From Actinomycetota bacterium (GTDB lineage: Bacteria; Actinomycetota; Geothermincolia; Geothermincolales; RBG-13-55-18), in contig JAQVFR010000031.1 of the NCBI GenBank assembly GCA_028697145.1, forward strand, positions 1 to 43,452: DNA of 43,452 nt. The letters are read 5' to 3'. How positions within the stretch are numbered: the first letter of the stretch is position 1; each line of letters begins with the position of its first letter. The notes under the pieces were generated by a model, which was not told the DNA's origin, did no database searches, and saw only the letters and a list, made by a program, of their open reading frames with translations. A program made the position numbers and the translations under genes. This document shows positions 11,892 to 14,297 of this stretch, in pieces.

Positions 11892-11939
11892 CTATTCATC
11901 GTCATGGTCCGGTCATCGCGGAGGGGAAGCCTTCATCCC

Positions 11940-12869
11940 ATGAATACAGATAGCCTCCGGCAATTGCTCGCATTGGCGGATACCGGCAGCTACAGCGGGG
12001 CGGCCGCGATATCGGGGGTCACCCAACCCGCCATAAGCCTCACCGTCAAGAAGATGGAGAAAGACCTGGGCGTAAAGCTGTTCGAGCGCGTGGGGAACCG
12101 CTACGTGCCCACCGATGCCGGGCGCATACTCCTGAAGCATGCGGGCGAGATCCTGGACGCGGAATCAAGACTCCTCGCCTCTCTGCAGCGGGCCGCGGGG
12201 AGCGCGCCGGTGAGACTTCGCGTAGCTACCAGCAACATCCCGGGCGAATACGTCCTGCCGCTTATCCTCGGCGATTTCAGGTCGGAGAAACCGCACATAG
12301 AGCCCGTGTTGGAGGTCATGGACAGCTCGAGGGTGGTGGAGTCGTTGCGCTCGGGCGGCTTCGAGGTCGGCTTCATCGGCATCAGCATCGATCCCGGCGA
12401 CCTGGAGGTCACTCCCTTCTGCCCCGACGTCCTCAGGGTCATCTGCCACCCGGCCCATCCCCTGTCCGGCAGGAAGGCCGTCCGGCCTCAGCAGCTGGCG
12501 CAGGAGAAGTTCCTGCTGCGGGAGGAAGGCTCGGGGACAAAGGAACTCATGGTCAAGGCCTTCCGCGAGGCGGGGCTGGACATGGAAGAGCTGCGGGTCG
12601 AGATGGAACTCGGAAGCACCAGCTCGGTGATATCCGCTGTCGAATCGGGCGCTGGCATCTCCCTGGTGTCGGCCTGGGCCGCAAGGGGTCCTTTCGCCGA
12701 GGGGAAGATCGGATATATCCAGGTGCCGCGGCTGAAGGTGAGGCGGCGGTTCAGCCTGGTGCGGGTGAAGAAACGCCCGCTCAGCCCGGCGGCGAAGCCC
12801 TTCGTCGATTTCGTCATCTCCCGGCGCGGCTTTCTCGGGAGTTATGCCCGGAGCATAGGCGCGGCCTGA
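11940..12869 (+). CDS. LysR-family transcriptional regulator
   Basis: A 309-residue LysR-type regulator. The N-terminal winged helix-turn-helix (SLRQLLALADTGSYSGAA, then VTQPAISLTVKKMEKDLG, then VKLFERVGNRYVPTDAGRIL) occupies residues 5-60. The C-terminal domain has the periplasmic-binding-protein fold, with FLLREEGSGTKELMVKAF, the anion-binding loop seen in regulators of the CysB/CbbR-like groups, and GSTSSVISAVESGAGISLVS. The effector is unknown. ATG 11940 gives the canonical N-terminus; an upstream ATG at 11904 adds 12 residues with no ribosome-binding site. Three half-sites upstream suggest autoregulation. Confidence 0.9.
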   Translation: MNTDSLRQLLALADTGSYSGAAAISGVTQPAISLTVKKMEKDLGVKLFERVGNRYVPTDAGRILLKHAGEILDAESRLLASLQRAAGSAPVRLRVATSNIPGEYVLPLILGDFRSEKPHIEPVLEVMDSSRVVESLRSGGFEVGFIGISIDPGDLEVTPFCPDVLRVICHPAHPLSGRKAVRPQQLAQEKFLLREEGSGTKELMVKAFREAGLDMEELRVEMELGSTSSVISAVESGAGISLVSAWAARGPFAEGKIGYIQVPRLKVRRRFSLVRVKKRPLSPAAKPFVDFVISRRGFLGSYARSIGAA

Positions 12870-12997: not shown

Positions 12998-13258
12998 TCA
13001 CGACAGCATGCAGCGCATGATGCGCGGCATCATGCCGGGCATGATCCTGTCCATCACCCGGGGAAGGATCTCCGGCATGAGCTCGCGCATGGAATCGCCC
13101 ATGGTGGGCATCTTCGCCTCCATGAGGGGCATCATGCGCGGCAGCATCCAGGGCATCATCACCGGCAGCATCTTCGGCATCACCAGGGGCAGCACGCTAT
13201 CGGCGAGGGCGAACATCCCATTTTTCAGCGGCGCCGGGACTTTCTTTCCCAGGCGCAT
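12998..13258 (-). CDS. Methionine-rich small protein under a CsoR/CstR-type operator
   Basis: An 86-residue protein I do not recognise from any named family. It has 20 Met residues and many Pro, in the pattern VMPKMLPVMMPWMLPRMMP and, later, IMPGMMPRIMRCML; a single Cys is near the C-terminus. The pattern may form an amphipathic or membrane-associated helix series, or a soft-metal-binding surface. Codons on the minus strand show strong GC third-position bias, while the overlapping plus-strand frame lacks a convincing start, so I call minus. ATG 13258 follows GGGAAGG. A perfect 18-bp CsoR-like palindrome lies 49 bp upstream and a CsoR-superfamily gene lies beyond it in the same direction. Confidence 0.7.
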   Translation of the reverse strand: MRLGKKVPAPLKNGMFALADSVLPLVMPKMLPVMMPWMLPRMMPLMEAKMPTMGDSMRELMPEILPRVMDRIMPGMMPRIMRCMLS

Positions 13259-13306
13259 GGCCCTTCCCGGCAGCGGTGAGATCGAGTCCGCATGTCGTGT
13301 GCATCA

Positions 13307-13324
13307 TATACCCCCGGGGGTATA
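13307..13324. promoter_or_regulatory. CsoR/CstR-type operator, perfect 18-bp palindrome
   Basis: TATACCCCCGGGGGTATA is a perfect palindrome with the AT-flanked C-run/G-run layout characteristic of operators of the CsoR/RcnR/CstR superfamily. It lies between the repressor gene (ends 13448) and the Met-rich gene (starts 13258), suggesting that the repressor controls the latter. A TATGAT sequence on the minus strand just inside it (near 13299-13306) could be the -10 element. Confidence 0.8.
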
Positions 13325-13447
13325 AGCGACATGATATGAATCAACGCTCCACGAGGGCCGCGGAGAGGGCGGGACAGGGAAGGGGTGTTTGAGGCTCGCT
13401 CGCGGATGTCCGCGCCGGGGCCGTACGCTGACCCCGCGAGCGGGGGA

Positions 13448-13741
13448 TTATTCCGGCGTCACGGGACCGATCCTGGAGCTGAAGCGCAGGAAGAAATCGA
13501 TGGCGTCCGCGACGGCGTCCTCGGGCGAGGCGGACTTGTCTTTCGAGAGGCAGTCCCTCATGCGATGGGTGATGATGTGGATGCCGATGCGGTCCATCGC
13601 CGATCGCACGGCGGCTACCTGCATCAGGACTTCCTCGCAGTCCTTTTCATCCTCCACCATGCGGATGATGCCGCGCACCTGCCCCTCCACGCGGTTGAGC
13701 CTGTTCAATATGGCTTCCCTGTTGTCATCGCTTTTGGACAT
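13448..13741 (-). CDS. CsoR-superfamily repressor, two-Cys CstR-like
   Basis: A 97-residue four-helix repressor of the CsoR/RcnR/FrmR superfamily: NRLNRVEGQVRGIIRMVED, then KDCEEVLMQVAAVRSAMDR. Metal or thiol positions are readable by alignment. C35 aligns with CsoR C36, and C64 with C65, but the copper-ligand His (position +25 from the first Cys) is Arg60; His59 and His55 are neighbours. A C-C pair without that His is the fingerprint of CstR-type persulfide sensors, so sulfane-sulfur or thiol sensing is more likely than Cu(I) sensing. AGGAG lies 6 nt before ATG 13741. A TATAAT on the minus strand at 13769-13774 is the probable -10 element. Confidence 0.85.
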   Translation of the reverse strand: MSKSDDNREAILNRLNRVEGQVRGIIRMVEDEKDCEEVLMQVAAVRSAMDRIGIHIITHRMRDCLSKDKSASPEDAVADAIDFFLRFSSRIGPVTPE

Positions 13742-14042: not shown

Positions 14043-14297
14043 ATGGAGAAGCAGGTGGGCAGGATCACGCACTTCTTCGGCAAGATAGGCGTGGCGGCGA
14101 TCGAGCTCGAGGACGAGCTTAAGGTGGGAGACACCATTCACGTCAAGGGGCATACCTCGGATTGGACCCAGGAGGTATCGTCCATCCAGATCGAGCACGA
14201 CCAGTTCGAGAAGGCCGGGCCCGGAGACGTGATCGGCATCAAGGTGGAAGGCCATGCCCGCGAACACGACGTCGTGTACAAGGTGATCCCGGACTGA
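14043..14297 (+). CDS. Free-standing EF-Tu domain-2-like beta-barrel protein
   Basis: An 84-residue protein that resembles domain 2 of translation GTPases without any G domain: VGRITHFFGKIGVAAIELED, then LKVGDTIHVKGHTSDWTQEV, then EKAGPGDVIGIKVEG. The pattern G-x-V-x-(barrel)-LKVGDxIxxxG and PGDxxGIK is shared with EF-Tu/IF-2 barrels. Small proteins of this type occur in archaea and diverse bacteria and are usually annotated as elongation-factor-like; their role is not established. The ribosome-binding site AAAGGAGGTGA is the strongest in the window, which suggests high translation. Stand-alone gene. Confidence 0.75.
   Translation: MEKQVGRITHFFGKIGVAAIELEDELKVGDTIHVKGHTSDWTQEVSSIQIEHDQFEKAGPGDVIGIKVEGHAREHDVVYKVIPD

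Follow-up and report, generated by a model that had tools for sequence, protein, structure and literature searches.

ScCsoR of Streptomyces coelicolor is a sulfane-sulfur sensor that binds the motif ATACC-N6-GGTAT; polysulfide releases it by way of Cys37 and Cys66, both of which are needed. The motif was derived together with the Geobacillus CsoR and RicR sites (PMC7533328). The locus described here resembles this system in having an actinobacterial DUF156 repressor with two cysteines (C37/C66 there, C35/C64 here) and a matching operator (PMC7533328). CstR of Staphylococcus and Enterococcus and YrkD of Bacillus licheniformis carry, as here, two conserved cysteines and lack the histidine of the copper sensors (PMC9405070, PMC9918477). 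A further parallel is TTHA1953 of Thermus, a two-cysteine, redox-modulated member of the CsoR family that regulates Sox genes and controls sulfur metabolism as a repressor (PMC10318464).

The locus lies on a 43,452-nucleotide contig of an Actinomycetota bacterium (JAQVFR010000031.1 of assembly GCA_028697145.1), the whole of which is called the window; its genome is referred to as G000. An earlier note on this DNA had described an 86-residue ORF with 20 Met, a CsoR-superfamily gene and, at 13307-13324, a perfect 18-bp palindrome, and all three were recovered where it had placed them. It had also treated the Met-rich ORF as a stand-alone small protein, a claim that finds no support: the ORF corresponds to the C-terminal tail of a ~1000-aa oxidoreductase whose gene is truncated in the window. 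We read the locus, with a probability of about 0.87, as a gene being lost, of which the repressor, the operator and a 3' fragment remain from an ancestral repressor-enzyme pair. This reading starts from the homology, the missing enzyme body, the retained control region and the retained cysteines, all of which are observed at the locus.

The repressor gene (13448..13741, minus strand) encodes a 97-aa protein of the CsoR/DUF156 superfamily, which scores 89.6 bits on PF02583, where the cut-off is 22.8 (E = 1.8e-25), and is the single match to that Pfam family in G000. Fourteen of the 15 genomes in the taxonomic family, and 17 of the 18 in the order, carry an orthologue. C35 and C64 are invariant in all 17 orthologues. 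Arg occupies position 60 in 14 of them; the exceptions are G068 with Lys, G133 with Gln and G298 with His. In the same column InrS and Geobacillus CsoR have His, and 7mq1, which we take to be CstR although the PDB entry itself is titled csoR, has Asn. The earlier note's reading of C35 and C64, with Arg60 in place of the histidine, was thus correct. With Arg60 in the His column, the repressor departs from the Cys-His-Cys ligand triad of Cu(I)-sensing CsoR and shows the two-Cys, no-His pattern of CstR. The His-column residues and the invariant cysteines therefore exclude the classical copper triad and fit the pattern shared by CstR, YrkD and ScCsoR.

A thiol or sulfane-sulfur (CstR-like) sensor is the likeliest reading, and of the inducers named in the earlier note, sulfane sulfur is plausible and a soft metal may be sensed. 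The histidine at position 60 of one orthologue (G298) counts against it. That the repressor is instead a sensor of Cu(I) or another metal, of the CsoR/InrS type, appears unlikely. Its nearest solved relatives by score are indeed InrS and Geobacillus CsoR, ahead of the 7mq1 entries, and the operators of Geobacillus CsoR and RicR also have the ATACC..GGTAT form (PMC7533328). Against a metal sensor, the His that serves as third metal ligand is replaced by Arg in 14 of the 17 orthologues (Lys, Gln and His occur once each), no gene for metal efflux adjoined any of the repressor copies read, and the targets found code for redox enzymes that carry FAD, Fe-S and CCG domains. Of the sulfide-detoxification genes linked to CstR (rhodanese, PDO, SQR, sulfite exporter), none was recognised beside the repressor in the window or the relatives read, where the neighbours were inspected by eye and some of them also by profile search. 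The gene that adjoins the repressor, at 14043-14297, encodes an 84-aa protein resembling EF-Tu domain 2 and is conserved at this place in relatives.

The palindrome TATACCCCCGGGGGTATA (ATACCC-N4-GGGTAT; 13307..13324, minus strand) ends 48 bases before the ATG of the Met-rich ORF and occupies the same position upstream of the intact enzyme in relatives. It fits the CsoR/CstR-type operator ATACC-N6-GGTAT exactly (motif from PMC7533328). No other match at up to three mismatches occurs in the window or in 100 shuffles. Five perfect 18-bp palindromes occur in the window, and three of these fall within CRISPR repeats; as a bare palindrome the operator is thus less special, and its significance comes from a position conserved across genera. 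The CRISPR repeats belong to an array end at the contig start (15-192), with three copies of GTCGCCTCCCGCGCGGGAGGCGTGG[A/T]TTGAAAC spaced by 68-69 bp and followed, by eye, by an apparent VapBC-type toxin-antitoxin pair.

Eleven promoters in the order (the window, G198, G144, G187, G176, G165, G079, G298, G283, G229 and G068) carry ATACCC-N4-GGGTAT with at most one mismatch. A CRP/FNR-like box, TGAT-N4-ATCA (TGATTCATATCA; 13332..13343, minus strand), begins 20 bp 5' of the ATACCC half-site in the window. The same distance from box start to first operator base is kept exactly in 10 of the 11 promoters and is 31 bp in G144. The box often reads TGAT-N4-ATYA, and the window keeps both elements. Crp-type HTH proteins are encoded in G000, and a CRP/FNR-like activator may act at this box; a sigma-70 promoter scan found nothing. 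The control region is genuine and conserved in the order. The palindrome, which the earlier note had proposed as an operator, belongs by sequence to the class bound by ScCsoR (ATACC-N6-GGTAT; PMC7533328) and is conserved in all 11 promoters. Because the motif is common to copper sensors and sulfane-sulfur sensors, the operator does not tell which ligand is sensed.

The same palindrome, ATACCC-N4-GGGTAT, also occurs in REP-like repeats with TCAAAATTCAAGACCTGACCCC flanks, at 15-33 copies per genome in some genera. Such repeats were seen in G044, G079, G251 and G298 (e.g. L093:269, L100:1501, L098:1501) and at G000:C13:79266. Genome-wide operator counting fails in genus g3 and in G044, where REP-like repeats next to AAGACCTGACCCC share the palindrome.

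The Met-rich ORF (12998-13258, minus strand; 86 aa with 20 Met and 13 Pro) lies inside a 3' remnant of an FAD/Fe-S/CCG oxidoreductase gene (12998..13289, minus strand). Its 86 residues are 71-82% identical to the C-terminal tail of ~1000-aa ORFs in eight sister species of the same family. Homologues were found in 27 of the 296 phylum genomes searched, nearly all within open frames of ~1000 aa; the short-frame exceptions are the 101-aa frame of the window and a few others, some of them split or cut by contig ends. Within the family, the tail is present in 9 of 15 genomes, in 8 as the end of a complete ~1000-aa frame and only in G000 as the 101-aa frame, with no tail-only homologue in the other genomes. 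Neither the 86-aa ORF nor the tail of the intact enzyme matches Pfam, and an NCBIfam search with the ORF returned noise only. On the other side of the ORF, a LysR-type regulator (11904-12869) scores 233.5 against 250 bits, just under the cut-off of a selenium-metabolism-associated LysR family.

The intact form was seen in four Actinomycetota MAGs of a second collection (L029-L032, two of them named Candidatus Solincola), in which a CsoR-like gene and the operator are followed by a single ORF of 994-1036 aa that ends in Met-rich sequence. L032 and L031 both contain FAD_binding_4, FAD-oxidase_C, 4Fe-4S (Fer4) and two CCG stretches. Of the curated families, TfrB, LdhH, GlcD and GlpC come nearest, all with scores far below their cut-offs; among solved structures the best relative is 9ojn, an iron-sulfur-binding reductase, which aligns over the Fe-S/CCG portion.

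Wherever the full gene is present in the order (ten genomes), the repressor gene adjoins the enzyme gene or sits within 2 kb of it, and the operator lies upstream of the enzyme. The repressor gene is upstream of the enzyme in f1, whereas in f2 (G229, G068) it is convergent with the enzyme gene and placed at its 3' end. The co-occurrence of repressor, operator and Met-rich sequence, which the earlier note had put forward as a check, therefore holds within the order; outside it, no CsoR gene was present within the 5-10 kb read around fourteen tail-bearing loci, and one such enzyme (L057) is preceded by an operator-like site. What emerges is a candidate regulatory pair with phylogenetic support, in which a two-Cys repressor of the CsoR family accompanies an FAD/Fe-S/CCG oxidoreductase and the promoter layout is conserved.

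The junction in the window spans 13290..13306 (minus strand), where the enzyme gene lacks its ribosome-binding site, its start codon and ~900 codons, a gap of ~2.7 kb when set against L032. In the alignment, promoter homology to relatives stops at or just past the operator, and homology to codons near the 3' end of the gene begins at 13289 (GGACTC..., DSISPLxG; GGACTCGATCTCACCGCTG... aligned with GGACTCCATCTCGCCGCTC...). Only 17 bases separate the two in the window, against ~2.75 kb in L032. Relatives have a GGAGGTGG-type ribosome-binding site ahead of the enzyme; the window has lost it, along with the FAD, Fe-S and CCG domains, so that the tail alone remains. A search with the L032 protein found no enzyme body elsewhere in the G000 assembly; beyond the tail there were only paralogues, the best 34% identical over part of the protein.

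The initiating ATG (13258) is an internal Met codon of the enzyme. The in-frame codons before it read ADSISPLPGRA in the window against LDSISPLLGKA in L032, with a TGA upstream in frame. As these codons still match the enzyme and the ribosome-binding site is gone, the 86-aa "protein" starts at an internal enzyme methionine. On this alignment evidence, the Met-rich ORF is an enzyme fragment, a truncation product in the window and not an independent small protein.

It could still be argued that the fragment serves as a functional small Met-rich protein, induced through the repressor by sulfane sulfur, thiol stress or a soft metal, as the earlier note had supposed. The frame and the repressor/operator unit are intact, and sequence constraint is retained: dN between the window and G198 is 0.103, against 0.102 between G176 and G198, and dN/dS to G198 is ~0.23, no faster than between other pairs. 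An intact, non-accelerated tail frame is also compatible with retained function and in this respect speaks against gene loss. However, no other family genome has a tail-only version, none was seen among the matches in the phylum-wide sample of 296 genomes, the ATG is an internal codon preceded by ordinary coding sequence, and the GGAGGTGG-type site is lost. The fragment probably has no function as a small protein, and induction of such a protein by these signals is highly improbable. Membrane insertion of the tail, which the earlier note had suggested predicting, was unsupported: the highest 19-residue Kyte-Doolittle mean is 1.42, the usual membrane threshold being 1.6, and AlphaFold gives a two-helix model of low confidence (pLDDT 65, pTM 0.34). 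Thus, a false lead is removed, and the case serves as a warning that, in a draft assembly, a short and striking ORF behind an intact operator can be what a deletion has left over.

Since the tail shows no decay, the missing body reflects either a recent gene deletion or an assembly collapse. The latter would make the deletion an assembly or binning artefact, the organism having the full-length gene. The assembly is fragmented (52 contigs), the tail is undecayed, the promoter spacing is perfect, and the operator's ACCCCC..GGG resembles the M-T-P-Q-G codons near the tail (ACCCCCCAGGG), a possible site of mis-join or slippage. Yet no fragment of the body lies on any other contig of this 97.6%-complete assembly, the junction is 13 kb from the nearer end of its 43-kb contig, and the congener G297 is also without the enzyme gene. 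An artefact is accordingly judged improbable, if still a serious alternative. G297, G015, G044, G251 and G293 all keep the repressor beside the same neighbouring genes and have no enzyme gene; this recurrent loss within the family makes a biological deletion in G000 believable.

Under the gene-loss reading, the ancestral state, still found in eight sister species, would be a two-Cys CsoR/CstR-type repressor that controls a neighbouring ~1000-aa oxidoreductase gene through ATACCC-N4-GGGTAT, placed 20 bp after the TGAT box. A biological deletion would then have removed nearly everything between operator and tail in G000, leaving the 86-aa Met-rich frame. The repressor would presumably still bind the window operator and be released when sulfane sulfur or another oxidant modifies its thiols. 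The enzyme itself may oxidise a 2-hydroxyacid or feed a thiol/disulfide-linked electron chain.

Two further sites are leads to additional repressor targets, as suggested by their operator sequences. A second non-repeat exact operator in G000 lies 51 bp upstream of an hdrC-hdrB-hdrA2-like operon (L116:2323-6941, G000:C16). In G015 and G293, which represent two genera and lack the FAD enzyme, an exact operator directly precedes a small two-cluster ferredoxin gene (L118 near 4494, L120 near 3852), followed by a conserved ~143-aa GCHIC protein with no Pfam match; in the other genomes read, the GCHIC protein is present and has no operator there. A conserved regulon at hdrCBA was considered and rejected, as the orthologous promoters have a near-exact site in G144 only and none in five others read. 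A broader scheme is offered tentatively and seems doubtful at present: in this uncultured actinobacterial order, a CstR-like thiol sensor and a CRP/FNR-like activator might control heterodisulfide-reductase-like electron transfer rather than sulfide detoxification, with the Met-tailed enzyme, hdrCBA and the ferredoxin operon as targets. If true, this would give the CsoR superfamily a regulon of redox metabolism for which we found no earlier description.

The targets of ScCsoR are a persulfide dioxygenase, a rhodanese and a sulfite transporter (PMC7533328), whereas the ancestral target here is an FAD/Fe-S/CCG oxidoreductase, beside which no sulfur-oxidation gene was seen. The cst-type operons of sulfurtransferases, CoAPR or SQR-PDO that accompany CstR and YrkD are absent here (PMC9405070, PMC9918477). 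TTHA1953 differs in its operator, TACNNTACNNNNGTANNGTA, and in targets that lie far from its own gene (PMC10318464). The enzyme is alike in domain content to GlcD/D-lactate dehydrogenase-type FAD oxidases fused to GlcF/HdrD-type Fe-S and CCG domains (cf. LdhH, TfrB and 9ojn). In contrast to these fusions, the intact orthologue falls below the corresponding NCBIfam cut-offs and adds a Met/Pro-rich C-terminal tail.
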